A stretch of 64,000 bases of DNA, taken from NCBI GenBank assembly GCA_950295325.1, contig OX485803.1:68279554-68343553 (forward strand), read 5' to 3'. Source of the DNA: Polytrichum commune (lineage: Eukaryota > Streptophyta > Polytrichopsida > Polytrichales > Polytrichaceae). A model generated the notes under the pieces. That model was given only the letters and a program-made list of their open reading frames with translations. It was not told where the DNA came from and ran no database searches. Positions within the stretch are counted from its first letter, which is position 1. The number at the start of each line of letters is the position of its first letter. A program made the position numbers and the translations under genes. Positions 36,661 through 64,000 of the stretch are shown in pieces.

Positions 36661-37488
36661 CTTTAATGCTCGGGGGGGGGGGGTAGTCATTGGTTGGAGT
36701 AGCAATATACGTGCAAACAAATGATAGGGTATTTTAAAAACATGGGGGCAAAAAATTATAAATAATACTATATTCGTTAAATTGAGACTTTCTCTAGTCT
36801 CAAATTAATATATGGATCAAACAACATGAAGATGCCTGAAACTATATTGTCAACAATCTCAAATATATTAAATGTTCTAATATCCCACACCTATGATGTG
36901 CGGACATAAGCACATATGGTAGAGCACTCAACACCAATTTCATCAACAAAAACACATTGGGTAGAGCACTCCAAACAAGTTTCACCCAAAAATATATATA
37001 TAATGATTTCTATTATTAGCATGCTCCATAGAATATAGACATTGCAACATACAAAGTGCATGTAATAAATGCATATTTTTTCAATGGACAATTTAGTCCC
37101 AAACTTAATAAAAAAATGAACTTCACATTTGTATTGAAATATAGTAAATGGATATTCATCCAACTCCAAAACAATATAGTATTCGTAAGTTCTACCCAAA
37201 CTCTGCCCCAATTTTGAAGAGCACACATATGAGTAATATATGTTCGTAGAATTACTGTTTACACTATAATCATGCTAACACAATCCTACCAACTTCTCAT
37301 TCAACGTGGGTTGCTTCTTCTGCGATCCGAGCAAGGTTGTCTTTTGCAAAAGTTATGTACTTTTGAGGGATGGACACTGATCCACTATGATTTTTCCGTG
37401 GTTTCCATGCTATGAATATGGAATCTGTATCTACCCAAGATGGACCGTGCTCAGAATCCACCTTCCACCGAAAGTTAGGGTTTGTATC

Positions 37489-40361: not shown

Positions 40362-40549
40362 TTTGCCTACACACATGAACATGGAACCTTGTAAAGAATT
40401 GACAAAAGCTATAGGGTCCAATAGAAAAACACAGAAACCTTATCATAACACATGTTGTATGAATATTATATCGATGGGTTCCAAAAAGATGGAGCGCACA
40501 ACAGTTTATTCAGGATCCGTCTATGCACATCCCCATTGTGTGCATGAGG

Positions 40550-41315
40550 GTGGGTTTGGGTCGAGCAACCCAAACCTCGTGATAGGATGGGCCTGCTAAT
40601 CCAGGCCCAACCCGTGACAGGGGTGGGTTTGGGTCGCTCGACCCAAACCTCACAATGGAGGTGGGTTTGGGTCGCTCGACCCAAACCTCACAATGGAGGT
40701 GTGTTTGGGTCGAGCGGCCCAAACCTCGTGACAGGATGGGCCTGGTAATCCAGACCCAACCCTTGATAGGGGTGGGTTTGGGTCGCTCGACCCAAACCTC
40801 GTGACAGGATGGGCCTGCTAATCCAGGCCCAACCCCTGACAGGGGTGGGTTTGGGTCGCTCGCCCCAAACCTCACAATGGAGGTGTGTTTGGGTCGTGCG
40901 ACCCAAACCTCATGACAGGATGGGCCTGGCAATCCAGGCCCAGCGCGTGATAGCGGTGGGTTTGGGTCGCTCGACCCAAACCTCATAATGGAGGTGGGTT
41001 TGGGTCGAGCGACCCAAACCTCGTGACAGGATGGGCCTGCTAATCCAGGCCCAACCCGTGACAGGGGTGGGTTTGGGTCGCTCGACCCAAACCTCACAAT
41101 GGAGGTGTGTTTGGGTCGAGCGACCCAAACCTCGTTACAGGATGGGCCTGCTAATCCAGGCCCAACCCGTGAGAGGGGGTGGGTTTGGGTCGAGCGACCC
41201 AAACCTCGTGACAGGATGGGCTTGCTAATCCAGGCCCAGCCCGTGATAGGGGTGGGTTTGGGTCGCTCGACCCAAACCTCACTATGGGGGTGGGTTTGGG
41301 TCGAGCGACCCAAAC
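40550..41315. repeat. Palindrome array, 14 copies, between the two divergent genes
   Basis: Fourteen copies of GTTTGGGTCG, two variable bases, CGACCCAAAC (with flanking G and C). They start at about 40553, 40625, 40664, 40702, 40774, 40846, 40886, 40958, 40996, 41069, 41108, 41181, 41254 and 41292. Centres are mostly CT or AG. Alternating spacers include a second hairpin, TGGGCCTG mirrored by CAGGCCCA. The long minus-strand frame across the array is a repeat artefact. Confidence 0.95.
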
Positions 41316-43187
41316 ATTCCGCAAATTCCGCCTTAAATTGCGGTAATCTTCCATATTCAGCTACGTGGATACTAATTGGAAGAATTCAGGCCGTGCATGG
41401 CTGTTGTAATTAGCTACTCATCAACGGATGCATACACGAACCTTGCACTCCACCACTACTTGAGAGAGCTTGCAACCATTTCAGAATGGAGAGATGAGAA
41501 AAAAGGAGCAAAGTTTGGGGGGTTTGGTACTTTATACTACCTGCCTCCGCCTTGGCCTTCCTCTTTGGATCCCTTTCCCGCCCGAACGTAAACCCTAAAC
41601 CTAAGTTCAAACCTTCTGACAGAATTTCCCGCTTCTTGTTGGTAATAGAGCATCCATATTTAGCTTGCCTCTTCGTGGCGCCAACCATCAAATGACCTTG
41701 GACAACTAACCTCCTAATTCCGCTATTAAATAACTACACAAAATATGATGTGTGGATTTGATTATATGTAGTGTTGTTACCACCAGTGTCCGAAAAGTTT
41801 TTGAAGTTATTGAGGTTAATTGCCTACCTCTTTAAAAGGGCATAGGCTATTTCCCTCATGGCATAGGTTGCATCCTACAATATCAAATTTTTGTAAGTTG
41901 AAAACCTTTTGAGTTTTTAAGTTACTTGCCAATTGCCTTTAAAACTAATTTTTAGTAGGTTAAAATCCTTCATATCTTTTAATGTTGTAGGCTTTAAATT
42001 CAAAATTTGAGTACTAAGTGGTATCCTTGGCAGGAATTGAACCTGGCTAAGCCCTTCACCACGTTTGAAGGCCAAGGATTAACCAACTCCTTTTTAAAGA
42101 GTTGATTATAAGTTATGAAAGGTTGCTAAAATTCAAATGAGTTTAAGGGTGAAAGTCCTCACCATCTTCTGATTCAACCTCTATGCGGTGATGGGGCTTG
42201 GGCTGTGGTATTTGTAAAGATCGACGGGGAGGGAGTCAGGGCTATTATTGATATCCGCCTATGTGCCACTCAAGAGCCCCGAGTATTAGCCTAAAGATAT
42301 GTACTTAGGCCAACTAATTTCCCAATTTGAAGAAGGATGAATGGCTAAAATCCGCTCTTTTAAAAACTTTGTAGGCAAAATTTCCTACATGTTTTTTACC
42401 ACATAGGTTGATATCCTATGTTTTAAAATTGTCCATAGGCTCTTTGTCCTACACTTTCAAAATTTTATAGGCTAAGTCACAAATTTTGTAGGCTGCATTT
42501 ACACTAGCCTTAGGCTCTTGGCGGACTATGGTTACCACCCTTACATGCTCAACATTAATTTTCAATCCTATGACAGTTAGTGTTAGAAGTAAATGTGTTG
42601 CTACCTTCTACTCTCACGTATATTTCTTCTTTTCACATCCTTACTAACACTAAATTCAAACATGTCAATGCCACATATTACTATAGCTTATATTTAATGT
42701 TTATTACTTTCATATGGTTATTGATATATTGTGTATTCACTTGTATTTAGTGTATCAAACACTAAATATCATACTTATTGTAGTTGTGTTTTGTACCTAT
42801 AGTTTTTATTGATTTGGCTTGCCAAAAAAAATGTAATCAACTTTATTTGTTTTAACAAATGTTTGATGAAAAATCTAAACATATATAGTTGTATCTATTC
42901 AATGCAAGTTGAGCAGAACATGTCCTTAAATACATGTTGGTGTGTTCTAGTGTCACTACACTAAATAAGATATTTAGAGATTTATACACTAAATATGAAC
43001 GCATCTACGACGTAACATAACATACATAACAAACATAACATGAAATGTAACCAACGTTCATGTTCATGAATTAGACTATTGTGATATCTATATACATTTG
43101 TTTTTAGAACCACAAGCGACTTGGCCCCCTCATTTGACCTATGCGCCATTCATTTATGGCTTCGAGTGCAACAAGACACATTTATAT

Positions 43188-43245
43188 ACCCTAAACCCTA
43201 AACCCTAAACCCTAAACCCTACACCCTACACCCTACACCCTCGTA
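43188..43245. repeat. Interstitial telomere-type repeats (CCCTAAA)n, then CCCTACA
   Basis: About four CCCTAAA units followed by about three CCCTACA variants. They lie next to the inverted-repeat element at 43259-43822, as at 3057-3094. Confidence 0.9.
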
Positions 43246-43258
43246 GTTGTTCAGGGTT

Positions 43259-43822
43259 GCTTCCCACGGGTAGGTCACTTAGTGCATTTTAAAAACGACG
43301 TGCGGCATAATATAGAGAGGATTGAAATCATTTGAAATAAAAATTATAAAGGAATTCCAAATAATGAAGGGGCCATTAAATGTAGACAATCCCATTATAA
43401 GTAAGTTAGACGGACATAAAATGTGGGCCATTATTTTTTTGTAAAATTAATATAGGGGCTGAAGATAAGGTTCCTAGAAGGTATGTTTAGTATAATGTTT
43501 GCTATGGTCTCCTATGTGTTTTCTTCATAACTTTGTTTGCAATGATATTATTGTTTGCACCCTTCTTTGTTTCCATGGTTTCCCTTAACAGGAAGTAGAT
43601 TAGCTTTTATTACTTAAAAGGAATATAGAGTACAAAAAATTGCAGTGACTTGGACAATATAAGTAATGGAAGGGTGCAAACAAATGGGCCATTTTTGAAA
43701 TTCAAGTAATTATAGGGAGGCTTTAATTCAACCCTTGAAGGTAAATAGCCCCAAAACAAAAAAACCCTGAGCCGCACGTGGTGCACAAAAATGCCTTAGA
43801 GTGACCTACCCGTGTGGCTTCC
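43259..43822. mobile_element. Nested MITE-like element with ends containing GGGTAGGTCACT
   Basis: 43259-43306 and 43771-43822 are inverted repeats. They share CACGGGTAGGTCACT, then a looser GCATTTT block, then ACGTGCGGC. The interior of about 460 bases is AT-rich and non-coding. The AGGTCACT core recalls the end of the element at 2681-3058, which also touches telomere-type repeats. Confidence 0.65.
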
Positions 43823-44639
43823 ATATAGAACACCATCTACTGTAATTTGTGCCTCATTTCCTAATAAGATATGTTGTTTAATATATGTGGAGGGATCATC
43901 CAACAACAAAGTGATTGCTTAAATGGCTTCATATAATGTTGAACTCCACATATTAGTATTTGATAGCTTCATATTTGTATACATGGTGCTTCTCTCATTT
44001 ACTATCACTATATTCAATATTTGTAGACTTTATCTTGTCTCAACTAAATATATGAACAACAACAACATTGTCTAATGTTTGGGTTGTCCTACCTAAACCA
44101 TCTTCATATGAGTTCTTAATTGGGTTCTTCAGCAAAAACACCCGCTTCAATATATTTGTATCTCATAAATATGTAAACTTGTAAATAAGTATGTTAATGT
44201 TCCATCATGCTATAAATCAAACAACATCTTTGTTGCTTTTCGCAAACAACAATGATATTAAGTTGTCAACACTTAATATTGCATAATTCCATATTATAAT
44301 GAATGACACTACATAAACTTGTATAATTAGATTTAGTTCAATGGTATGTGTTAACGGATCCATCGTAGGCTATAGCATTGTCCTTTACCAACAACCTTCA
44401 TAGATAATTACAATATATAACTCGAAACCATTCATTGTGTAAATGGTTACCATAGTTATATTATTCCATTATGTAATTGCCTACGAGGATTGCAATATAA
44501 TTATTAAATACTCCTCTTAGTCTAGTATCTATCATTCTCGATTCATGCATATGTGTAGATTACTAAAATTACAAAACCAATACAGTTTCATTATTTGATA
44601 TTAGCAAATCCATCGGGGGACCATTAAATTAAAAACCTT

Positions 44640-45110
44640 AGGCTATAAAGGTTTTTTAGTATCCTCAAGGATGGTATGGGATAGGTGGCTAAAGGATACC
44701 CACCTGCGAGGCCTATCGACCGTCAATGGGCCTGGGGCTCTCCAATGGCTCAGATTGTGTATTCGTTTGGGCCATGGAGCGCCCCGTGACACGTGGCGGC
44801 CATGAGCCGAACGGACACGAAAGGCGCCGGCCCGAATGGGTCCCGCCCTTGAGTGACCTTCCCCCTTTCACTCTCCCCTCCGCACTTTCTCCTTCTCTCT
44901 CCTCCGCTCCAAGCTCCTCCTCCTTTGTACGTTCCTCATACTTTCTGGAGGCGCCGCCGCTCTTGAAAGCGCCGCCTCCTCCCTTGCATTCTCTCTCTCC
45001 TTGTCGAACTCGCATTCCCTCTCTCCTTCCCTCTTCATCATTATCTCATTCTCTCTTTCACTCCTCCTCTTCTTTTGATCTATTTTGTTGTTCATTGAGT
45101 GCGCATTGAC
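44640..45110 (+). promoter_or_regulatory. Probable promoter and pyrimidine-rich leader of the large element gene
   Basis: A TATAAA at about 44645 precedes a GC-rich segment with CACGTGGC at about 44789. A long C/T-rich stretch (44860-45080), typical of a plant 5' leader, follows. A leader intron of more than 1 kb would then carry the palindromes at 45730-46425 before the start codon at 46448. The promoter call is inference. Confidence 0.4.
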
Positions 45111-45729
45111 CGAGTTCTGAGTGTAGTATGAGTTTAGGGTTTGTTTTTGTATTAAAGTCTATACATTTTAGCCATTTCAGAACGTCTTTGTTGTTTTGGA
45201 GTGTGAGTGTTGTTTCAAAGTGGTTGTGTCAGTTCCTCCTGGTCTTAGAAACATTCATGTGTGAGTGTAGAGTGATTTCGGAATTAGAATGATTGTTCGA
45301 AAATCAGGATGCATGTGTGGCCTTCAGATAGCTTCTTTGTTCATGTTTGTAAACACTTGTTACATTCAGAGTGAATGTTTGTGAGGGATTGTTTAATTCT
45401 GAGTGAATGTTTGTGAAAGCTTCTTCAATTCAGAGTGAATGTTTGTGAGGCGTTCTTAGTTTTCTGATATCCAATCCTTTCTAGAATCAGCTTCCAAGAC
45501 TAGCTTGTTAGAACTGCTTCCAACAGCAGCTTGTTGTGTAGTTTGCAAAGCAAGGTGATTTCTTCAACTTCTTTATGTGTGTCAATTTCTTTAGAGTTTC
45601 GCAGCATCTACAATGCATAAGCATTGTATATGCTGCGTAAACACATTATAAAGGTCTCTGGAATCAAAAGTGTTTCGAGAGACGACCCAAACTTCAGTTT
45701 GAAACCCTAAAACACTAAACTCTGCAGCT

Positions 45730-46425
45730 GGTTTGGGTAGAGCGACCCAAACTCTCCAGCTGGTTTGGATCGTTCGACCCAAACTCTAAAGATGGTTTGG
45801 GTCGTTCGACCCAAACTAGCAGATGCTCTGGGTCGTGGGCGCCAATCCATCTGCAGAGTTTGGGTCGCTCGACCCAAACCATAAGCATTGTTTGGGTCTA
45901 GGGTTTAGCCAAACTCCGCATCAAATGTTCATTTATAATTAATTTAATCATCATCTTGGGTGAATATCTAACCCTATCGACCCAATCCATCTGCAGAGTT
46001 TGGGTCGTTCGACCCAAACAGCACATGAAATGGTAATTCATAATTTAGGTAATCATCATCTTGGGTATGATCTAAGGCCATAGCCGATCATTCCATACCG
46101 CTACAAAGTTTGGGTCGAACGACCCAAACTCTGCGTAAATTTTTACTGCTTACGAACAATACTTACACTTATAAACAACAACTCAAACACCCAAGCAATA
46201 ATGAAATGACCCACAACTAGAACAGTAGCTCGTGATGATTGTTGTATCCATGAACTTAAAGATTGGTTTTCGTAGCCAAATAATATATTATTCATTAGCC
46301 ATTGTAGGCACAGGTTTGGGTCGTTCGACCCAAACCTGTGAAAAGTAACCCCATATATAAATGTTACTAAACCCAGACATAAGCCTTTATGATTTGAAAG
46401 AGTTTGGGTCGCCCGACCGAAACTA
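45730..46425. repeat. Palindrome cluster upstream of the large element gene
   Basis: About eight spaced copies of the 22-base palindrome and some halves, at about 45731, 45762, 45793, 45857, 46000, 46109, 46313 and 46402. Here the central bases are often TT or AA instead of CT or AG, while the arms stay constant. Spacing is irregular, unlike the array at 40550. Confidence 0.9.
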
Positions 46426-46447
46426 ACATATGTATTTCTACTTGCAG

Positions 46448-49400
46448 ATGCCCCCCAAGAAAAGACCTGGAGAACGATGGTTCAAGCCGGCATCAGACGC
46501 GATCTGGCAGGAGCACGAAACTCCTAAAAACCAATCCTACGTAGCAAAAGAAGACCTTGTAATTGCATGGTCCTTTCTTGTAGTAAAGGCAGCTCAATTC
46601 AAAATCCTCCTTGTTTTGAAGGTTGGCACGGAGAAGCAACACACATGGGATGCTTTGACGGGATGGGAGGTGGCATCAGTTCATGCTCTAGGAGAGCACG
46701 TTGACGTCTGTGAGCCCAAAAGGGTGCCCACATTTAGTCTTAGACCCCTGAAACGTTAGTTGATGCACTTTGAAGTAGCATGTTACTTCACAAAAATATA
46801 AAAAGAGTGAAATGTTAGTCTTAGAAGTACCATGTTGTAAGAGGCTAGGATGTGAGTTGTTATTGTGTTTTTACCTTCGGAAGGATTTGAGTGAATGAGG
46901 ATAGGTAAGGAGAACTTGGATTGAGTAGTTAGTGAGTAGGCTAGTACAAATGGATGGAGACAACCAAAGTGACTCAAGAGGCAAGTGCATTCGAATTGGG
47001 ATGAATGGAGGATCACATGGAGCGCACAAGTGGACCACCTCATCATGGCCACTTAATGGGGAAGGCCCAAGGAAGAATGCAAGGTGGAGGATAAGCAAAT
47101 TCTCAAAGCACCAATCAAATCACGAGTTAAGCATCGTGGTTTGAATTAAGTGGTGAGCGACGATTTGGGAAAGTAAGGGGAGAAAGTTATGGCGGCGGAA
47201 AGCGAAGGAGGCTAAGTTTGGGTTGAAGCATCCCAAGTTTGGTAAAGTGTGGTAGGTAGAAAGCCAAGGCTAGTTAAATGTTCGAATTAGGATCCTTGTT
47301 GATCATTTGAGGGAGGAAGGCTTAGAAGATAGGATTGGCGCCTACTAAGTAGGAGGAAATCTCAAGGGCTTATCGTGAGCCTTGAGGGTGCTCACCCCCT
47401 CAAGCTTACTATATAATCCCTCATTCTTCCCTCACTCACTCTCTCTTTCCTTGGTGCTCCAAGGCACCCCACGAGTTATAAGTGTGGGTGTGGGAAGCCA
47501 TATTGGAGCACATGTGTGTGCTTAGTTTTTAGTTTGAGAGCCAAGGCTTGTTAGCCTTGAAGAGGGCTTGACCTCTTGGTAGAATTAGTGTTGACGTGAA
47601 GGATTTTAAAGTTAATTCATGATTCCAATTTGTGGTACTTAAAGTTCATGTTTTGAATACACGTGGTTGCAAGTTCCATGTTTAAGAGTTGAGCACTTGA
47701 TGTTGTGATGAGTGCAAAAATATACTTGTGTGATTTAGTTAGTCTTAGTGAAGTTAGGAAATTCTCTCTGCCCCTCTCCTCTCTAGGATTTTAGGATTTT
47801 AGGATTAGAGAAGAATTGTGTGATTAGAAAGGGGTTGTTAGTAGAATTAGGGAAATTAGGTAGGAAGATTAGTTAAGGGCTTGAATAATTAGTGAGGTAG
47901 TTGGGGATTACAACTACAAAGTTGTGGGTTCATGAAAGAGCTGGGTTTATGAAGGAGCTGGGTTTGTTTAGTTAGAAGCTAAGAAGCTGGGTTTATGAAG
48001 GAGCTGGGTTTATGAAGGAGCTAGGTTTATGTAATTAGAAAGTAAAGAGATGGGTTCATGAAGGAGCTTAGTAGATAGCCTACCTAATTAGCTCATAGAC
48101 AAGTAGTTAGTTACATTATGCTAGTTAGTGTTATGGTGGCTTTCATAAGTAAATGTATTTGAGATTGACTATAGAGAATAGTGTTTTTTTTAACACTTGC
48201 ATCCTCTCTTTAAAAATAAACCACGTGCACAAATTAATGGAGAATGTGGAGCACTCTCGCGATGGCAAGACAAAGGAAGCAAAGACCAAAGGTGCGAGGG
48301 AGAGATTGACATAAGTCACATAAGTATTTCTTAATACTTAAAGGCTTATGTACGGTATGGAGACACCAAGTGAGACCTCTTATAGTAGCGATACGGAATA
48401 CACAAGTGATAGTTCAAGTGGTAGTATAGAGTCAACGGCACGGACTCCATTTAGGAGAGGGATATCCTTAAGGGCTTGTGTAGCTAAAGCGGCCGGATGG
48501 ACGTTAGAAGCAAACAAAGACAAAATAGCACCCGAGCATAAGGAGGTTAAAATAACATAGTTAACTTGTGCATTCTCCACATACGTATTGAAATTGTACA
48601 TTGAGTTGTTAAAAGTGAAATTCCAGTTAAATCCAAGACCACTTGAAGGGTGAACCTTGCACTATGGACTCATTCAAGTCCAAATCCAATACCGCGGAGG
48701 AATGTGAGCCCAAACCCACTACTCGGACTACGGACGCTTAAGGGTGGGGGGTTTGGCCTCACAACGTCATCCTGGAAAACTCTTCTCTGGAAAATGTGCA
48801 CATGTTCATGCATGAGCAAGCCGAGCCATTCGATCCGGTATACGTGAAGGAATCCTGCGCTGAGCCAGACATTGTTAAACCGGATACAATCTTCATAGAT
48901 GCGATCATTTCAAACACGAAGGTTGCAACCAGGTTCACTAAACTTAAGCAGGCAATCAACGCAATAAACAAGACCCAGCAAAGCAAGTCAAAATCTCAAC
49001 AAGCTGTGAGGCGCAAGGCGACTGCTGAAGAGGGCGCAGGGTCGTCAAGACCTCAAACAGTGAGGAAGCCCCGACCGGTTCCAGCTGACTCGAGGAGAAC
49101 AACACCTACGGCAACTCCTGCTGATAGTGAAACACCGACGCCATCACAAAGCCGGCAGACGACACCATCTAAGAGGCCGAGAGAGTCAGTATCTGCCATG
49201 ACAGATGAGCCTGTTTCACCGGAGCTACGTATGCCCAAGCCCGGGGAAGGAGTGGAGCCATCGGAGATCCAGAAAATACTCAACAATTTCGACACCAAGT
49301 GTTTACATTGTTTTTTCATGGGCAGAGAATTCAAGTTTGATGTCAACATCGCACAATGCCACCTAGCGCCACCAGAGAAGTGCGTTCGGGCAAAGGAAGA

Positions 49401-52400
49401 TGCGTATGTTGATTGGTTAATCGCCCAGATGGTGAGCGACCAGTTTAAACATGATAGGCAGACTATTGTTGTCATGCCTCAGGGACACAAAAGAATGCCT
49501 ACACCGGATATGTGGCCTTCTATAGAGAAAGGCGATTTTTGGCTGATTGACGGTTAGCACAGTGTTGAAGCTTCAAAGAAACTTCAACTGATGACGGAGT
49601 GGAATGATCCTAATGGTCTAAAGGAAAAATTGAAGGTATGGAAGGCATTGGTCGTGTGGTCGGACGACGAAACCCGGCTGAGCGATATCTCCCGCTATTT
49701 CAACATGAATAACAAGAAGCGGGCATATCAAGCTTCTTGGATTAGGAACATCATGGCATCGCGGGATGTGTGGGAGTTCTACGGCCGGCCTCCCAAGGAA
49801 AGGGAGAATGCAAAAGACAAGAATCCAAAGTGGGAGGTGAGCATTGTTTCTCAAACAGAGTTTGGGTCGCTCGACCCAAACTTTGGGTTTCTTCATACAG
49901 TTTGGGTCGCTCGACCCAAACTTTGCGTTTTTTCATACAGTTTGGGTCGCTCGACCCAAACCTTGTGTTTCTTCATACAGTTTGGGTCGCTCGACCCAAA
50001 CCTTGTGTTTTAGTTTGTGTTTGTCTACGCAGTTTGTTGTTCATCATTTTTCTTCTTTGTTTGGAAACAACATATTGAGAATTAACACGCATTCTATGCT
50101 CTTGTGCAGCTTTTCAAATACCAAATGATAAACAAGTTCTCCTCAATTGACAATTCAAGTCACAAGCAAAAGAAGTACAATGAGCTAAGAGGAGAGATCT
50201 ACTTGATTACATCATCCGACATGGTTTGGCAGAAGTGGAAGACAGTGTTTGAGAAACACGAGACAGGGGATCTCATGGATCCTGACACATGCAACCTCTT
50301 CAACTCGTCCTCTCGATTCAAGGCGATGAAGCCTCTCATGAGAGAATTCTTTAGAAGTCTGCAGGGTCTTTCGGAGGCGGAAATGGGGAAGGCGGCAACG
50401 CACATCTTGCACAACAACCCGACCCCTAAGAGATTTTGGGTGTACCCCAAAATAGTCTTCACCAAGCCGAAATCCTTTGTTCCTTCATGCTACACAATGA
50501 AGGAATGGGCGGAGAATAGGAAGAAGAAAACAACGATCGTCCAGGAGCTGCAGAAGCTAATCCCGGAAAAAAACATTTTTGTCGATGACGAGGTGAACGA
50601 GGTGAACTGGAGAGCGTTCAAGGCTGAATACAACTTCACCAGTGCATCCATGGCAGCTCTGATCAGGGAGGCAGGAGAAGACTTCCTAAAGTCAAAACTG
50701 GTGAAGGGTGGGAAGAACCTGGCTCTTCCAGAACACTCGACGCGTGCCTTCTCAAACTTTATAAAGGAGAAGAAGATTGTAAGTTTTGAGGGGGATGCGC
50801 ATTTCAACCTTGTCGCTTTTGACCCTATTAAAATCCAGGGATGGCCCGGCCTTGATTCCAGGAAAAAAATACGAGTAAGAGCAGCGGACCGGTTCCCCTT
50901 TGGTATAATAGACTTCCGGAGCATTCCTGGGAGTACGTTTGAGGGCACAATGGGTACACCCTTCTACGAGCCCTTCATGTCGAAGTTCGTGGAGTATGCA
51001 AGCCCTAAGTTTAGGGAGGTCGATATGTGGCTGTGGATAGTAGAGGATAGGAGAGCAGAGCAGGTGTATGAAATTGTGAGGAAATTGCAGCCTGAGTATG
51101 CGGTGTCTAAGTCTCACTACATTGCTGCACCGGCGGAGGGGGTGTACACGACACTAAAGGACAAGAAAACCAAAGTCATGAATTTGTTGTGCTTGTACTT
51201 TGTGTTCAAAGCAACCTTGCTGAAGGTGGAGAACCACCCCATAACCCGGATGCAGAAACTATTCCAAGTTCCAGAAGGCCTGGGCGCAAGTAAGTCCCTC
51301 TACGACGAGACAAAATATGCCATATACCATTCGGACGAGTTGCGGATGGAATTCTATCTCCGAATAATGAGGGCCTTGACGAGAAGAGGGGACTGTATAT
51401 TCAACGTCTTCGGCGGCACCAAGCCCGTCTTCGCTGGCATGGTAAGCTCATTACCATAATTGTTTTCATAGTTTGGGTCGCTCGACCCAAACTAACACTG
51501 ATGCTAGTTTGGGTCGCTCGACCCAAACTATAACCTTTGCAATTGATATTAGGTCTTGTATGTACTTCCCCTTTTCGGTGGAATCACATGTTATGCCATA
51601 TAATAACATCTGGTGGGATTTCTGTAGATGCTGGGGCTGAACGTGTACAGCTATGTAGACCTTAATGACATCCAATTCTACAAAGCCCAAAAATCATTGG
51701 CGAAGAAGATGGATATACTAGATTGGATCCCTGGGAGCTACGCCGAGGAGACTGTTGAAGGGGGTGAGAGCCCGCTGGATAAGGCGAGGCGTGTCAACCC
51801 TGAAGAATTGGCCATAAAGGTTCCAGTTGCTGTACCAGAGCCTCTGGTCCAAGTGCATCCAGGCACATCCTCTCGGCGACCGCGTGACGAGGAGGGGGAG
51901 GAGGAGGAGGAGGATGAGGAGGTGGAAGAGGAGGAAGAAGAGGCTAAAGTGGAGGGCGAGGTCGAAGAAGGGGGAACAGGCTTCACTCAGGAATCTGAAG
52001 CCCCTCAACGAAAGAAGGCAATGCGGGTAGCAACTCCACAAAGTAAGTTGGTGCCCGTCCTGACGGTTGATGATGCCCGCGACATGAACTCCAGGGATGC
52101 GACTGCCGCGTTCAGGGAGAGGAGGAAACTAAAAGGCAAGAAACTCTATGGCGACTATGCCATCGAGGAGACAATTGCCATTAGCAGCGAAGACGAGGAC
52201 GACATGGAGCTCGCGAAACGGCTCAGGTCGGACCCTCCCTCTCCAGGTGCCTTCGCAGGGATGGTGAAGGTGAAGCCGGAAGTCCTCACCGTGCAAGAAG
52301 CCAACGAGAAGATGTTAAGGGACGAAGAACAACGCGTCCGCTTGCAAAAGGCCGCTGCTGAAGAACCCTCAGTGCGGAACGAAGTGGCAAAGCTAAGGGC

Positions 52401-54431
52401 TCTCTTATTGGAGCAAGAGCGACTGCGGGCATTGGCGCAACCTCCAACTAGTGCGGACTTGATCACGCAAGTGATTCGAGGCATGTGGGCGCAGGGTTTG
52501 GTGGTGGCTCCCCCGGGCTCATTTCCACACTTGCCCCCCGGCTTCCCTCCCCAGAACATTCCTCCGCAGCCCGTGCCGCAATCCTCCTTCAGCTTTCAGC
52601 ACATGGTTCCCCCCCACGTCCGTCCGTATCCGCCGGTGCAACAAGCGGATGACCCCAATATATGGCGCCTTCCCGGGTCTTCTAGACCTGTGACCCCCCC
52701 ACCACTTCGGCCGCCCTTGGTGATCCCCCCGCCCCATCAGCAGGACGACCCCCACATGTTTGGGTCGTCCGACCCAAACCCGCCCCCCCTTACAGTGCAA
52801 CAAGGCCAATCTCATGATGCACGAGAGTTTGGGTCGGCCGACCCAAACCCCGTTACCGCTCAGTCTTCAATGGACCAGCATGGGTCTGAAAGAGACACAC
52901 CCATGCCTGATGTTGAAGGTCCTCGAGGGCCTGGTGATACCTCTACTCCTATCCCAATCGATGAACCTATGCATGATGCACATGCGGAGGTTGGGTTAGG
53001 AGAAGGTCCTGACACTGAGCGCTTGCAGGACAGGGGTGCTGACATCGTCGGAGAAGGCGGTGGCAAGAGAGAACGACAAGCGGAGGCGGTGGAGGCTTCC
53101 ATGGCGTCCAGGCATGACCAGGGAGAGGTAATACACTGAGACCTCCTCAGTTTGGGTCGCTCGACCCAAACTCCTGGTCTATTGTCTTGTTGCCGTGGTC
53201 GTGTCCCCCCTAGCTAGGAGGAACTGCCCCCACCCCGTCCATCCGCTCTCGCATCCCTTCAGCCCCCCCCCCCCCGACGATCACTAACGTCGCCCGTCCC
53301 ACGATTTTACTCGAACTTGGAGGCGTGCACACAATTTTGTAGATGTTGTATTAGGATAGTTTGAACGGATCGTTCAACGCGGCTTCGCACCCCTAGGCAT
53401 TTTGTACATAGAGCATTGCAACCAATAAAATTATTATTTTGTGCCCTTATGTTTGTTTTCGTGTTCAAATGTATATTTTTTCCTCTTGCCCCCTCTTGCA
53501 TTTGTATGGCCGCCTATGCATAGTGGTTCTTGTATTTTTCACAGAAAATATTGTATTCACTTTAAGTGGACATAGCATGACATAGTCTTCCCCCGCCTTA
53601 TGTCGCTCGTCTCCACAGGGATCGGAGCATAGCGTCGCGGCTCCCCGCCGGGCCTCTCCAAGAAGCGAGGAAGGTAGCGCGATGGTCCCCCCCATTTTAC
53701 CCGTTCCACCTTTGCCGCCTAAGACCCGGTTCCTGGTGTTAGACCTCAACGGGGTCCTCGTCCAATGCGTTCATTGCCCGAGGACCCCCACGGTGCCCTT
53801 TTGCAAGCCCGAGGACGCGAATTACGACAGGCCGCCCACGTTCATAAAGAGCAAGCTAGTTCACCTCCGCCCGTGGCTTCGGACCTTCCTCCAGATCGCC
53901 CAACAACGATGGTGGGTGGTCGTGTGGAGCTCCATGAAGGCCGAGAACACCAATGCAGTCGTGGAGTTCATTTTCAAGGGCATCGAGCCCCCCTGCATGG
54001 TCCTAGCACAGGAAGCCTGTAGAATATTGTACACACCGGACGGCAAAGTCGTCAAAAAACCAAACAACCCCGCTTCCCCCCAATACCTCAAGGTCTTGAA
54101 GCCCATTTTTTGGGACCAGCGTCCGTCATTGATAGGTGTCCCCTACGACGTCCGTCCCACCCGGGAGAACACGCTCATGGTGGACGACAGCGCCGCAAAG
54201 AACATGTTGAACCCGACGGCCAACTTAATAGTTTGCCCTACGTGGACGGTCGAGAAGGTCCGGGACCGATTTTTGTTAGACCTTAGTAAATACCTCCAGG
54301 CGCTCAGGGGAAGCGGACTACCTGTAAACAATTTTGTTAGGAATAATCCGATAGGCGAGAGATACTTGGATCCACGAGACCATTTGTACAGAGAGTTGTT
54401 CTCTCACGCGAAATTTAACAAGCTCATTTGA
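46448..54431 (+). CDS. Methyltransferase-like / FCP1-phosphatase-like fusion protein of element 1, one in-frame stop
   Basis: Five exons: 46448-46709, 48743-49836, 50110-51441, 51628-53127 and 53619-54431. All phases agree; about 1666 residues with one internal TAG at 49555-49557. The N-terminal third is unrecognised, with a basic Ser/Thr/Pro-rich linker. Exons 3-4 resemble a beta-class (N6/N4) DNA methyltransferase. A region with FGIIDFRSIPGS lies where the DPPY motif would be. Later comes GDCIFNVFGGTKPVFAGM followed by MLGLNVYSYVD, where the AdoMet motif FxGxG would be. Key residues are altered, so activity is doubtful. Exon 4 continues with an acidic stretch, coiled coil and Pro-rich tail. 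Exon 5 is an FCP1/HAD-like domain: FLVLDLNGVLV, VVVWSS and LMVDDSAAKN. The second catalytic Asp is Asn. Exon 5 could also be a separate gene, but splice phase and the related copy support the join. Confidence 0.6.
46760..48742 (+). other. Intron 1 of the large element gene with an LTR-like insertion
   Basis: 47390-47480 has TATATAA followed by a C/T-rich start region and a GTGCTCC stem, like a plant LTR promoter. 47924-48066 has about five copies of an 18-base unit near GAGCTGGGTTTATGAAG. A 70-codon frame at 48348-48560 (SETSYSSDTEYTSDSSSGS) could be the start of a gag-like ORF. Ends and protease/RT domains are not seen, so this is a fragment at best. Confidence 0.35.
49858..50005. repeat. 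Four palindromes in regular tandem, intron 2 of the element gene
   Basis: Four copies of the 22-base palindrome with centre CT, spaced 40 bases apart by a conserved spacer like TTTCTTCATACA. The nearly identical spacers point to recent local amplification. Confidence 0.95.
51471..51530. repeat. Two palindromes in intron 3 of the element gene
   Basis: Two copies with centre CT, starting at about 51472 and 51507, lie between the exons that together encode the FGGTKPVFAGM-MLGLNVYS region. Confidence 0.95.
52757..52850. repeat. Two palindromes inside coding exon 4
   Basis: Copies at about 52757 and 52828 with centres TC and GC are in the reading frame and encode FGSSDPNP and FGSADPNP. A further intronic copy follows at about 53150. 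Confidence 0.9.
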
Positions 54432-54435
54432 GGCA

Positions 54436-54437
<2 letters not shown>

Positions 54438-54473
<36 letters not shown>
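54438..54473. repeat. (GT)n microsatellite after the FCP1-like stop codon
   Basis: About 16 GT units begin seven bases after the stop of the FCP1-like exon. It may sit in the 3' untranslated region or spacer before the next ORF. Confidence 0.9.
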
Positions 54474-54476
<3 letters not shown>

Positions 54477-54582
54477 CGCCCGCCCACTTTGTGTAATATA
54501 TGCTTCATATGTATCTTGATTTTCACGCGCTCTAGCAAACCCTCTTCCTTTGGGTTTTGTTTCGTTTCCTTTTTTGCGCCAG

Positions 54583-55388
54583 CGTTTGGAGCCCTCGATT
54601 GACATCGTCAGTGAGTCAGAGTTGGGGAGCTTCTTCTACGAGACCGTTTACGACGCCGCGTCAACCATTGACTACTCCAAGGAGCCTATTGACGCCGGCA
54701 TCGTCGATAGCCCCCCACCCAAGCAAATCTTACGGCGATCTCCGTCCCCGTCGCCGCTCAAGGGCATAAATCGCAAATGCGTCCGGACATCCCCCTCTCG
54801 GCCCGGCGGAAGTATTACACCTCAACAGCGGCTGCGGATGGACGCACGGCCAACGAAGAGTGGAACCCTTCCTATTCCTTTGCGGGACGCCTTGCCCCTC
54901 CTTGCCAACTCCGATGGGAACGCCCCCGGTGACAAGGTGAACCCCCCCCCCTCTCTAAAACATGGTTAACCGCGCATTACAATCATTTTGCACTTAAAAA
55001 ATGATCGTGTGACACGTTTGGGTCTTCCTCCCTAAACTAACACATGTGGTCTTGCAATGACGCGTTGCAGGTTGCTCCCACCCGTAAACCTATGCGGTCT
55101 AGTGCGTCCATCGAGTTCGAGCGTATGTACGCCATGACCAGAAATGCGAGACAATCCACTTCATCGTATTCGAATTCTTCGACGTATATTTCGGGCGGCC
55201 GACGGACTCCAAAATGTCTTACGGATGGCGGTCACCCCAAGAATGGCTATAGTCGCGGGGCGGAGATTTTCAGGAATGTTGAAGCAATGCGAGCAAAAGA
55301 AGCCGCAGCAAAAGAAAAAGAGGCAAAAGAAAAAGAGGCAAAAGATAAAAAAGCAAAAGAAAAAGAGGCAATCTCCGAGGCTAGATAG
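54583..55388 (+). CDS. Small C-terminal ORF of element 1, function unknown
   Basis: Two exons, 54583-54936 and 55071-55388, phase 0 at each side. The 5' end is undefined: it starts at an acceptor-like site, or at an ATG at 54550 that would lie before it. I do not recognise the family. It is about 224 residues, Ser/Pro/Arg-rich, with FYETVYDAASTIDYSKE, VDSPPPK and SPSPSPLK, then GYSRGAEIFRNVEAMRAKE and a Lys/Glu/Ala-rich end that could be a nuclear signal. The same two-exon layout and the blocks DAAS-DYS, NSPPP and GYSRGPEIFR occur in element 2 at 61422-62427, so it is a conserved element gene rather than a chance frame. Confidence 0.6.
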
Positions 55389-55528
55389 GCCATAGTAGGC
55401 GTAGGGTTTTGGGCCATAGGCAACATCATTTTGGGTCGCACTATCCAATGTATGTGTGGTGTTAGCATGCTATGCATTTTACATGCCATACTTTGTATGT
55501 TTTTTTTGCAATAATATAAGTGTCACAT

Positions 55529-55800
55529 GATTTCCCCTTCAATATGGTCCAAGGTTTGGATTGCCCTAACTAAACCATCACAAATATGAGTTTGGAATAT
55601 TTTGTATGTTATATTATATTGGTTCACATAGTTCCCCTTCAATATGGTCTAAGGGTTTGGAGTGCCCTACCTAAAACATATTCATACAAGATCTCATATT
55701 TTGTGTGCGATAATATGAATGTTTTAAGATTTCCCCTTCAATTTGGCCTAAGGTTTGGATTGCGCATCCTAAACAATCCCAAATATGAGTTATTAATGGG
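55529..55800. repeat. Three subterminal repeats with degenerate palindromes
   Basis: Three copies, about 100 bases apart, of TTCCCCTTCAATATGGTC followed by a 22-base GTTTGG...CTAAAC dyad (55554, 55651, 55752). Same length and outer arms as the main palindrome but an eroded centre. Another degenerate copy is at 55018. Confidence 0.8.
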
Positions 55801-56192
55801 GTTCTTGTTCTAAATACCCGACACAAAGTGTTCGCATCTTACAACTTTCTCCAATATGTGTTCCATTTATCCTTGTTCTTATTTATGTGAATGTCTCAAA
55901 ATGCCCAAAAAGTCTCAATTTAACGAATATAGTGTTAAATGGACTTAAGAGTGATATAAGGTATCAAAAATGGCACTGGACATCTTTAAAGTACTATAGG
56001 GTATGGAATAATAGGTAATTTGGAATTATAAGTAATGCAAGCCATTTTTCTATTAACCCAAAGTAGAAATTTACATAATGATAGCATGTGAAAAAAATAA
56101 GAGAATTGAAAGTAATACCCCCCTATAAAATAGTGGTTGTTCGCACCTATACTCTTAACTTTTTAACACAGTGCCCCCCCCGAGCTTTAATG

Positions 56193-60969: not shown

Positions 60970-61421
60970 CTCGGGGGGGGGGGGGGGCAGTGTGTTAAAA
61001 AGTTAAGGATATAGGTGCGAACAACCACTAACACTATATTCGGTATTTGGAGACTTTTTGTTGATTATGAGACTATATAAGGATGCACCTTTCAAAATTG
61101 GACCAGTAATGACGACTAAAAATTCCATATGTATAATGGTATGCTACTATTATTATACATAAAGGCATGGAAGTGAACAAAAATGTGAGGCATACATGAA
61201 AATAGTTGCATATGAAATCACAACTCGTTATGAATGGAAGGGAAGGTGCGAAGAATGAATGGAAGTTGAATGAATTAATTGGGATTGAAATACAATTATA
61301 ATGGAAATACCATCAATGTCTTGAGTAACTTGGAATAGCATAGAAAGTAAGCACTTAAATATGTTCTACACCTAAGCCCATTTAGGGAGTCCGTCCCACT
61401 AGTACGCTTCTAGACGTCACA

Positions 61422-62427
61422 CTAGTCCGACCCATTATTTTTTTTTGCGGCTAAGCCCTTTTTTTTGGCGGCCTCCATGGCTCTAAAAATCTCAGGCCCA
61501 CGACTGTATCCTTGTGTGTTGCCTGGACAGGAATATGTGTCGTTCTTGCATGTTTCAGGACGCGCTCCCGAATTGTAAGAGGTGGTATTATAAGTAGAAT
61601 GCGAGGGTGTTTGCGAAAGGGAACGTCTTGCGCTTCTCCGGAGGGCCAGACAACGATCGGACTCGGAAGATGCGGCCTTGAGGGCGTGCCTATCCAAGGA
61701 GGACGTGGAGGAGGGCCGGGCACCAAGCGAGCGGGTAACCACCTGCGAAACAACGTCATAGGAAGATAAGAATAGGAATGGAGTGGGGAAAATAATGAGG
61801 GCGGTTTGGGATGGGCGCTCGTAAAGAGAACGGCACGCAAACGGAAGACAAGGAAAGCAAAAGCGAGAAAGGGGTTCAGGGTTGAGGAGGGCACCTTGGC
61901 TTTGGGGACGTCCATGCGGGGAACGGTGGGAACGAGGGGGGCGTCGACGGGAGCATCCGGAGCCGATGGAACTATTGCAATTATGTTGGATGGCGGGGGG
62001 GAGTCGAGGAGTGGAGGGCCCACGATCGCGGAGGACGTTGCGGGGGGAGGAACGGAGTCGGCGGGGGAGGTGTGGCAACGGGGGCCTTCCATGCGGAGAC
62101 GCCGGCTCGGCCCGCGACGAGCGACGGCGTCGTCCCTCGAGGGCGAGAGGTGTCCCAAACGAACGAGCGTCCGTTTCTCCTTGGAGAGGGGGGAGGGCGA
62201 CGGGGCGTAGGCGCGGGCGACAAGTGGTGGGGGCGGGCTGTTGACGACGCCGTCGTCGATGCCGACGTCGCGGGAGTAATCCACGGCCGAGGCCGCGTCG
62301 ACCGCCGAGAACTGGTAGAGGGATGGCATTTGGAAGCCCGTGACGTCGCGGGAAGGGGAGGCAGGGGGCGAGAGGGGACGGGAAGGGCCGTCGACCACAG
62401 GGGCGTCGCATATGGGGGCAGACTATG
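61422..62427 (-). CDS. Small C-terminal ORF of element 2, homologue of 54583-55388
   Basis: Exons 62427-61895 and 61742-61422, phase 0, about 284 residues. I do not recognise the family. It shares with the element 1 ORF the blocks DAASAVDYS, VVNSPPP, SPSPLSKEKR, RRLRMEG, and GYSRGPEIFRAMEAAKKK at the end. The Pro/Ala-rich centre is longer here. The 5' boundary is an acceptor-like CCCATAG after a T/G-rich tract, as in the other copy. The stop is TAG at 61422-61424. Strong GC bias opens long shadow frames on both strands here; homology to the other copy decides the frame. Confidence 0.6.
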
Positions 62428-62533
62428 GGCAAGAACAACAACAACAACAATCACAACAACAAAAGACATCCAAAAACGAAGCAAGCATTAGTAAATGTGA
62501 ACCACATGATACAAGCAAAGACATGGAGGCATT

Positions 62534-63301
62534 TCAAATCAATTTATTGAGTTTGGCGAGCCTCATGATGCTCTTGAATACATTATCGCGGGGGCTTAGC
62601 GCCGCATTGCCGAAGGGGTTGGACCTAACAAAAAATGGGATGCTACCGGCGTGGAGCACGAGCCTTCTAAGGTAGGGGGCTAGCCTATCGACCAAAAATG
62701 TGTCTTGCCTATCGCCGGTCCAAGTGTCCGGGAAGATGACGTTGCCCGGGGGGTTCAAGACACTCTTGGTGGGGCTGTCGTCGATGAGGACGGTGTTCTC
62801 TGGAGTCGGCCACCACCCGTGCGGCGTCCCTTGCAGACGGGGGACGCCTCGCCAGAGTCTCGAGCGGAGGACCTTGAGGAACTGTTGTCCTCCGCCCCGA
62901 CCGCCAAACTTGGGCACCGGTTGACCTTTCTCGTCGAGCAGCTCGTCGCAGTCCTCTTGGCCGAGGACGAGGCAAGGGCTCGGGAGATCGCGGAACAAGA
63001 AGTGCACGATGGGCTCGGTGTTCTCCATGACCATGGAGCTCCACACAATGACGTGAGCGAACTCGACCACCTCGCGAAGGAAGTCACGCAAGCCGGGACG
63101 GGCGCGGACAGCCTTGCGGTTAATGAGGGTGTCGAGCTCGCCGTCGTAGTCCCTTTCGTCGGGGTGACGGAAGGGACGCGTGGGGACCCTTGGGATGTGT
63201 TGGGTGTGACACAACACCCCGTTGAGGTCAAAAACGATGAAAGGTTTGTTCCGGGTGGGAGGTCCACTGGTAGAGGGGTTGCGACCAATCTCCGGGGGGT
63301 C
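62534..63301 (-). CDS. FCP1/HAD-phosphatase-like exon of element 2
   Basis: One exon of 255 residues plus stop, beginning at an acceptor (CACAG at 63302-63306) in phase 0, exactly as exon 5 of element 1. HAD motifs: FIVFDLNGVLCHTQ, VIVWSSMVMENTEP and VLIDDSPTKSVLNPPGN. The second acidic residue of the first motif is Asn, as in element 1. It ends LAKLNKLI, against HAKFNKLI in element 1. The frame is open and, within the window, undamaged. FCP1-type phosphatases act on phosphoserines such as those of the RNA polymerase II tail; whether this one is active is doubtful. Confidence 0.8.
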   Translation of the reverse strand, partial: DPPEIGRNPSTSGPPTRNKPFIVFDLNGVLCHTQHIPRVPTRPFRHPDERDYDGELDTLINRKAVRARPGLRDFLREVVEFAHVIVWSSMVMENTEPIVHFLFRDLPSPCLVLGQEDCDELLDEKGQPVPKFGGRGGGQQFLKVLRSRLWRGVPRLQGTPHGWWPTPENTVLIDDSPTKSVLNPPGNVIFPDTWTGDRQDTFLVDRLAPYLRRLVLHAGSIPFFVRSNPFGNAALSPRDNVFKSIMRLAKLNKLI

Positions 63302-63432
63302 CTGTGATGAACAACTCGACTAGTTTAATTCTATGATCCAATAATGAAATTTTGCGTAGAAAATGAAGACGGTGCATTATGGGGAAAGACGAGGAAGTGA
63401 GGAGAGTGCAAGGAAAATGTGCTCAAGGGCAC

Positions 63433-64000
63433 ACTTGCGAACGAGCGTTCGTGAATGAAGGCTGCGGGGGCGGTGCGCATCATTTACGAGCGCTCGTTCG
63501 TGAGCGCGGCTACACGTACATTTACGAGCGGTCGTTCGCGAATGAGGTGGACAGTGGGTCGCAGCCTTTCACGAACGAGCGTTCGCGAATGAGGTGGGTA
63601 TGCAAGAATGAACATAATCTCATCAACATATACAACATACGAGAAGGGGTCGAGGGCAGAGAATTTGAAGCAACGCGATGCAGATAACATAGGCTCATAT
63701 ATTAATCCGTTGAATATTTACATTTCTCACGTGATAGTCTATCACATTTTCCTAAGGCAAAATGATGCCGTGTCCTACAAAACTGTTCGGCCCTAAGGGG
63801 GACCGCTGAAGAGGGCTCTCGCAAGGCCACTGGATGTCGATGAAGAGAAAAACATCGCGATGTTAGAGAGGTTACGAACGCGCGTTCGTAAAAAAATGGT
63901 ATTCTCAGAGGAGAGTTACCTCGTCATCGGGGGGAGGGGTAGCGGCGCTGGACCGAGCAGCAGGTCCCTCCTCAACGATTAACGAACGCGCGTTCGTAAA
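63433..64000. repeat. Second palindrome family (TTTACGAACG and mirror), six copies
   Basis: Copies at about 63433, 63483, 63520, 63569, 63871 and 63979. The best form is TTTACGAACG, a CG or similar centre, then CGTTCGTAAA. Variants such as GAGCG for GAACG keep the symmetry. They occupy the intron before the FCP1-like exon and the exon upstream of it. None occurs in element 1. Confidence 0.9.
63920..64000 (-). CDS. Partial exon of the element 2 large gene
   Basis: Minus-strand exon end with donor GAG|GTAAC at 63920, phase 0, matching the end of exon 4 in element 1. The visible product ends ATPPPDDE. The palindrome at 63979-64000 is inside the frame and reads as FTNARSL. Continues beyond the window. 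Confidence 0.5.

Follow-up and report, generated by a model that had tools for sequence, protein, structure and literature searches.

Why do two related giant transposons, with the same genes in the same order, carry different palindromes at matching places? The question is raised by a window of 64,000 nucleotides from Polytrichum commune (the whole stretch of DNA analysed; contig OX485803.1, G000:C1:68279554-68343553), which holds an element of family A (element 1) and part of a sister element of family B (element 2). The genome searched comprised 408 Mb in 64 contigs, and the further families recovered from it were named C, C', D, F, G and H. The palindromic sites are family-specific and constrained, and the motif co-varies, as a correlation, with the encoded proteins. 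The reading favoured here, at a probability of about 0.6, is that these are giant DNA transposons with a private address system, in which the protein of a large gene would read the palindromes of its own element and protect or activate that element.

Palindromes and genes of the two sister elements

The site of family A is GTTTGGGTCG-NN-CGACCCAAAC and that of family B is TTTACGAACG-NN-CGTTCGTAAA, the second arm being the reverse complement of the first and not, as a preliminary description of the window had it, its mirror. At up to three mismatches, the limit used in counting sites per unit, element 1 contains 32 A sites (25 exact) and element 2 contains 31 B sites (15 exact), while neither element has any site of the other family. 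Element 2, which is on the minus strand, extends to about window coordinate 77165, i.e., 13 kb beyond the window end; the next 18 kb were added and compared with element 1. The six B sites inside the window are all imperfect (two with one mismatch and four with three), and the exact copies lie beyond its end. Corresponding positions are occupied in both elements: one array each lies upstream of the DUF7869 gene and of the divergent large gene, and further sites are located in the inferred introns and at the end of the exon preceding the FCP1-like exon. Genome-wide, exact sites number 9231 for A, 2909 for B and 853 for C and C' together, with 0 occurrences of the reversed pattern of each. In total, 420 sites were counted in 223 kb of units, whereas each of three first-order Markov shuffles contained 0.

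Every gene of element 1 has a counterpart in element 2, with order and orientation kept. The three parts of the DUF7869 gene are 67, 72 and 54% identical (the last being the N-terminus). In the large gene, parts of exon 1 are 31-34% and 51% identical, exon 2 is 37% and exon 3 about 30% (part only). The FCP1-like exon, with a Pfam NIF domain in both elements, is 43% identical over 236 amino acids, and the C-terminal open reading frame (ORF) 42% over 86 amino acids (E 3e-10). The preliminary claims of a sister element with the same genes, and of a different palindrome at corresponding places, are thus confirmed. We infer the exon structure of the large gene from sequence, and the frames and conserved order suggest that exons 1 and 2 encode one protein. 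The features of the two elements are as follows.

36764..55936: element 1 (family A), 19.2 kb, 4-bp duplication AAAT
37489..40439, minus strand: DUF7869 gene of element 1 (ORFs 37489-38805, 38778-39740 and 39741-40439; Pfam DUF7869, E 7e-43)
40554..41315: array of A palindromes upstream of the DUF7869 gene
45683..46423: array of A palindromes upstream of the large gene
46427..49858, plus strand: region of large-gene exon 1, element 1 (limits approximate), ending in a ParB/sulfiredoxin-like domain (fold predicted from the element 2 relative)
49860..50001: four A palindromes in inferred intron 1
50086..51459, plus strand: large-gene exon 2 ORF, element 1, with a helical part and an amino-methyltransferase-like fold (predicted from a G-family relative)
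51471..51528: two A palindromes in inferred intron 2
51628..53139, plus strand: large-gene exon 3 ORF, element 1, with two palindromes towards its end (52758 and 52827)
53150..53171: A palindrome in inferred intron 3, before the FCP1-like exon
53586..54431, plus strand: FCP1-like (Pfam NIF) exon, element 1 (E 1.2e-15)
54520..54966, plus strand: C-terminal ORF, element 1
60973..61029: flanking piece of the repeat of about 335 bp with G-run and C-run ends, an insertion target outside the element (left limit approximate)
61030..64000, minus strand: in-window part of element 2 (family B; loci L021 and L022), terminal inverted repeat AACACTATATTCG at both ends, duplication AGTG
61454..62422, minus strand: C-terminal ORF, element 2, counterpart of that of element 1
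62534..63319, minus strand: FCP1-like (Pfam NIF) exon, element 2 (E 2.9e-16)
63434..63589: four degenerate B palindromes (63434, 63483, 63521 and 63568; three mismatches each) in the inferred intron before the FCP1-like exon
63871..63892: B palindrome, one mismatch to TTTACGAACGNNCGTTCGTAAA
63979..64000: B palindrome, one mismatch to TTTACGAACGNNCGTTCGTAAA

The real ends of both elements are AACACTATATTCG repeats (the left end of element 1 being AATACTATATTCG), nearly the same in A and B, with 4-bp target duplications recorded for these two elements (AAAT and AGTG). The stretches previously taken for shared termini (60980-61030 and 56131-56181) were rejected as such, because they are parts of the repeat of about 335 bp, an intact copy of which is present in the C locus (reverse complement of L033+L032+L023, 3699-4031). 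Pieces of this repeat occur in the window at about 36671-36763, 55937-56184 and 60973-61029, A and B having each inserted at different points into copies of it. By eye, the repeat apparently has a 9-10-bp duplication of its own.

The copy of the large gene in element 1 is broken, since exon 1 is interrupted by an insertion of about 2.05 kb (about 46709-48763; a duplication of 5 bp and ends of the TGTGAGSCCAAA type), and a TAG codon stands at the conserved Gln of the GQH motif described below; other copies are open. A short telomere-like run of CCCTAAA units was observed inside element 1 (43185-43233). The window also contains two genes of plant-like character, one of MADS type (SRF-TF) and the other a double Cpn10.

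Further families and the geometry of the sites

The genome search with DUF7869 scored 150 of 1488 candidates. Among nine further DUF7869 loci, seven had other palindromes upstream and two had none. The motifs at these loci were CCCACGGGTG (family C), CCCACGGGCG (C', which differs from C by one letter per arm) and GGGTGAGGCA (D). A protein search of the genome with C exon 1 added 17 loci, and with them the motifs of families F (GTTCCTCTCG), G (CTTTCACTCG) and H (CTTCCACTCG). Family C is related to A and B (52% identity in the DUF7869 gene, 25% in exon 2, 32% in the FCP1-like exon, and 26% to B in exon 1), and all three carry unrelated palindromes at mostly matching places, those of C being located in both arrays, in the inferred introns and additionally after the FCP1-like exon. 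The DUF7869 genes of family D (L026, L027 and L028) are accompanied by long arrays of mostly asymmetric GGTGAGGCATATGCCCCACC-like sites, and the D locus contains, after the DUF7869 gene, a weak match to the ParB-like exon (34% over 64 amino acids).

For all eight half-sites the spacer is 2 bp and the core of each arm about 10 bp, and the inward ends are always CG, TG or CA. Judged by per-letter conservation over distinct sites, the edge of the arm is sharp at 10 letters in A, C and C', and falls at 10-11 in B. In the spacer, 11 of the 16 possible dinucleotides occur among 119 exact A sites (many of them copies); the exact G and H sites (11 and 7, respectively) have AT only.

Agreement between motif and protein clade

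The occurrence of the motifs was analysed at 60 FCP1 loci, spread over the identity range of the scored matches (138 of 1289 candidates, and 146 of 1268 in the search with the B FCP1-like exon), with six loci besides. The motif of the locus's own protein clade was present in 58 of the 60, two carried none, and in no case was the motif that of another clade. The first 20 included 18 with their own motif and the two without (L015 and L017, whose upstream DNA is foreign). All of the further 40 (20 A and 20 B, scored at up to four mismatches) carried their own motif; selected from the protein lists alone, they constitute the independent test, which covers families A and B. Near-identical proteins with unrelated palindromes, a combination of which the preliminary description had warned, were not encountered among the 60.

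In a set of 50 units, many of them mutual copies (with L023 overlapping a C unit and L026 a D unit), 46 had sites and four had none (L015, L017, L029 and L030). No unit combined unrelated motifs, and in L039 and L042 C occurred together with C'. For L036-L052 the agreement of motif and clade is partly by construction, the motif having first been found in these very loci.

When the seven motif labels are placed on a tree of 21 ParB-like regions, 6 changes account for them, which is the minimum (shuffled mean 12.8; 0 of 200 shuffles as low). In this tree 13 of the 18 inner branches are weak, near-copies favour clustering of the labels, and the C group and the F group, each by itself, take two changes. 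Over the 12 pairs compared, motif distance rises with protein distance: three same-motif pairs (0 letters apart) are 72-99% identical by region, the pairs C84-C73 and G-H differ by 1 letter, F-H and F-G by 2-3, and pairs in which all regions are at most 46% identical by 5-6. The pattern suggests that each family may recognise only itself. Motif and proteins do vary together by family, as proposed in the preliminary description; the element-specific recognition and co-evolution proposed with it would be one interpretation of that pattern.

Constraint on the sites

Between A subfamilies, identity over the 1.5 kb that precede the FCP1-like exon is 59-69% (seven comparisons: L003-L008 and L010), and the arms of three sites located there, taken as the exact sites of the window copy, are 59-60 of 60 letters identical in all seven. 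L001 and L002 are too near the window copy to inform. An alignment of A introns (L062 and L063 versus the window) gave site identities of 69/120 and 80/120 and was set aside, since sites and tandem units were aligned out of register.

Changes within the half-sites affected one arm in 529 cases, both arms symmetrically in 23 and both arms differently in 7, among copies that are related, with most one-arm changes coming from B and D and a three-mismatch limit that somewhat disfavours double changes. The excess of one-arm over symmetric changes fits protein contacts better than hairpins.

Predicted folds and motifs of the encoded proteins

Structures were modelled for exon 1 from the B protein and for exon 2 from a G-family protein. 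Residues 265-392 of B exon 1 were compared by VIA-align; the top 24 rows had Z scores of 9.4-6.2, and the next row 5.0. By title, 21 of these 24 are ParB, Noc, KorB, PadC or sulfiredoxin, the others being SbnI (2) and Atu1540. The best matches were ParB (7bnr; Z 9.4, root-mean-square deviation (rmsd) 3.0, 95 aligned), Noc (7ng0; Z 9.2) and sulfiredoxin (6ky4; Z 7.0). For residues 245-466 of G exon 2, whose model has a predicted local distance difference test score (pLDDT) of 72, all 50 of the rows listed bear titles of DNA or RNA amino-methyltransferases (Z 10.4-8.4), the best being MTA1c (9u92; Z 10.4, rmsd 3.7, 168 aligned) and M.BceJIV (9c3s; Z 10.2). In Foldseek itself, the 50 rows listed for exon 2 were all methyltransferases, and those for exon 1 were dominated by a low-confidence beta region. 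The models are best read as giving the large-gene protein a ParB/sulfiredoxin-like fold and, after it, an amino-methyltransferase-like fold; the motifs of both depart from the canonical ones.

The canonical cytidine triphosphate (CTP) motif of ParB is of the GERR type; at the expected position the large-gene protein has [DN]GQH[ST], of which G340, Q341 and H342 are invariant in 13 sequences. The canonical motifs of amino-methyltransferases are DPPY/DPPW and D-P-F-x-G-x-G. The DPPY/DPPW-type catalytic motif of active beta-class and MT-A70 methyltransferases was not found in the large-gene protein; about where it is expected, judging by position, are D286, R288 and P291 (DxRxxP), invariant in 11 sequences, and N-x-x-G appears, again by position, to stand in place of the D-P-F-x-G-x-G type. 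Searches of the large-gene exons against Pfam and NCBIfam gave nothing convincing, with no ParB-type Pfam match in 13 members; sequence searches of the PDB with these exons gave nothing relevant, and IMG/VR scans with the large-gene proteins revealed no relative. No helix-turn-helix was identified in the large-gene protein.

The FCP1-like exons of A, B and C carry the Pfam NIF domain. The catalytic motif of FCP1/SCP phosphatases is DxDx[T/V]; here it reads DLNGV in A and B and DVNGI in C, the second Asp being Asn, and the FCP1-like phosphatase may consequently be inactive. Taken together with the altered methyltransferase motifs, this makes it likely that the large-gene and FCP1-like proteins are adapters rather than enzymes.

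A proposed private address system and its alternatives

The large-gene protein is the likely reader of the palindromes. We infer binding as a dimer, in which both half-sites, each of about 10 bp and separated by two bases, would be contacted, and loading would take place upstream of both genes and inside the introns of the protein's own element. The loaded protein would then spread or recruit partners, the FCP1-like domain being a candidate link to RNA polymerase II. The element's own genes would be kept open or expressed, and sister families with a different palindrome would be left untouched. By analogy with known systems, anti-silencing or activation is a plausible outcome. A fuller scenario is offered as tentative, namely a radiation of self-recognition codes. 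ParB-fold, methyltransferase-derived clamps without catalysis would each be locked to their own palindrome, would load at promoters and introns and spread, with an altered FCP1-like partner shielding or driving transcription; families would arise by joint shifts of protein and site, of one or two half-site letters each (C to C'; the H intermediates).

A number of observations weigh against the private address system. On the structural side, the B exon-1 model is weak, with a mean pLDDT of 48 (10-residue blocks at 51-87 in its better part, residues 251-390); Foldseek gave no match at E of at most 0.001 for either the exon-1 or the exon-2 model, and the fold calls are a re-scoring of Foldseek's own candidates with Z of about 9-10, values of 7-8 being common. 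The 22-bp core is partly the analyst's choice, and F, G and H sites are conserved and symmetric several letters beyond it (in F, four additional letters at 81-93%; the G figure comes from 5 distinct sites only). Most D sites lack symmetry (3 of 70 are exact), and D is weak at letters 1 and 6. L029 and L030 possess a DUF7869 gene with no motif. C yielded no match to either exon 3 or the C-terminal ORF, and the 23.6-kb D locus none to the FCP1-like exon, so the FCP1-like gene may not be required.

The proteins themselves provide further difficulties. The preliminary description had expected a protein region varying in step with the motif, and none could be singled out: identity by region and in 25-column windows, compared between same-motif and different-motif pairs, revealed none that stood out. 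Within the large gene, conservation is highest in the ParB-like part, and DUF7869 and FCP1 diverge between families as well. Mixed palindromes within one element, the other combination to look for, did occur for related motifs: besides the C/C' loci, the H loci L048 and L052 mix CTTCCACTCG and GTTCCTCTCG, with CTTCCACTCG upstream and, in intron 1, either GTTCCTCTCG (L052) or hybrid sites with unlike arms (L048). These mixed sites are possible intermediates of a motif shift.

Among the alternatives, it is doubtful that the palindromes are plain feedback operators, through which the large-gene protein would regulate the element's two genes with no anti-silencing. Arrays do occur upstream of both divergent genes, and KorB, of ParB fold and titled a transcriptional repressor, is among the fold matches, but the many sites per array, together with those in introns, exceed an operator's needs. 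An active methyltransferase that marks the element by placing N6-methyladenine or N4-methylcytosine in or near its own palindromes is unlikely. The exon-2 fold resembles MTA1, M.BceJIV, CcrM and the Adineta N4C enzyme, and a study of Ectocarpus suggests that transposon proteins of this ParB-methyltransferase kind may bind the element that carries them and modify it (PMC12477816); the catalytic motifs (D-x-R-x-x-P and N-x-x-G, assigned by position) nevertheless look altered.

DUF7869 is the transposase candidate; Pfam gives it no function, and no mention of it was found in the open-licence papers searched. That the palindromes are binding sites of this transposase for excision and integration is improbable. 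One of the two large arrays adjoins the DUF7869 gene in A, B and C, as do the D sites, but the first and last sites lie 3.8 and 2.8 kb from the element ends in A and 3.8 and 2.4 kb in B, and the absence of a subterminal site, i.e., of any A or B palindrome within 2.4 kb of an end, speaks against such a role. Moreover, sites recur in the introns of the other, large gene, and of the proteins of A and B, whose terminal repeats are nearly the same, DUF7869 is the best conserved, yet the palindromes of the two families are unrelated. Finally, RNA or DNA hairpins acting, e.g., in intron splicing or small-RNA production are very improbable, for although many sites are perfectly self-complementary and a good part lie in inferred introns, the half-site changes are mostly uncompensated (529 versus 23), and the same letters recur within a family, which pairing alone would not require.

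Comparison with known systems

CACTA/EnSpm elements have termini that start with CACTA and a 3-bp duplication. In A and B, CACTA is contained in the terminal repeat, but the ends that fit a duplication read AACACTA and the duplication is of 4 bp, unlike those of CACTA/EnSpm. Sola1 transposons make 4-bp target duplications, as found here in A (AAAT) and B (AGTG). ParB, Noc and KorB bind palindromic sites and would have the ParB-fold domain in common with the large-gene protein; their motif is of the GERR type, in contrast to GQH[ST] here, where no helix-turn-helix was identified. A precedent for the proposed chemistry is VirB, a ParB-type transcriptional antisilencer that binds specific DNA sites upstream of promoters (PMC10770331, PMC10653881). 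VirB is a bacterial plasmid regulator, and the accessible text on it makes no mention of a methyltransferase-like part or of a diversified site family.

ParB-methyltransferase accessory proteins are already known from algal transposons. Sola1-1_Ec32 of Ectocarpus is a 21.5-kb transposon with a protein containing ParB-like and N4C/N6A methyltransferase domains, encoded on the strand opposite the transposase and suggested to bind its own transposon (PMC12477816). The moss elements resemble it as giant elements with a candidate protein of the same kind opposite the strand of the candidate transposase, with a predicted ParB/sulfiredoxin fold (weak model) and a predicted amino-methyltransferase fold. 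They differ in that the catalytic motifs look altered and an FCP1-like domain is added. Neither "palindrom" nor "FCP1" occurs in that paper, and its accessible part mentions neither binding sites nor sister families whose sites differ (PMC12477816). In the titles and abstract openings of the open-licence papers searched, no palindromes were described as diversifying with such proteins. The algal suggestion that these accessory proteins bind their own element becomes testable, since candidate sites are now named. The natural series of proteins and sites, from identical through one letter apart to unrelated, lets DNA reading by ParB/methyltransferase-like proteins be worked out.

The closest likeness in logic is to VANC of the Arabidopsis VANDAL transposons, in which the transposon protein and short noncoding repeated motifs differ between families and change together (PMC5735166, PMC10398659). 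Here, too, a family-specific motif differs between related elements along with the protein, and VANC motifs are often in tandem arrays, as in the A and B families. The motifs of VANC21 and VANC6 are 8-9 bp long and the word palindrome is absent from PMC5735166, in contrast to the palindromes described here; nor do the accessible parts of PMC5735166 and PMC10398659 mention ParB or methyltransferase folds for VANC. Anti-silencing has been demonstrated for VANC, as reported there, and is proposed here by analogy. The comparison made in the preliminary description thus holds for the logic only, and the elements are likened to VANDAL/VANC without being classed as members. They may offer a second, independent case of the VANC principle, a private escape from silencing that would thereby limit damage to the host.

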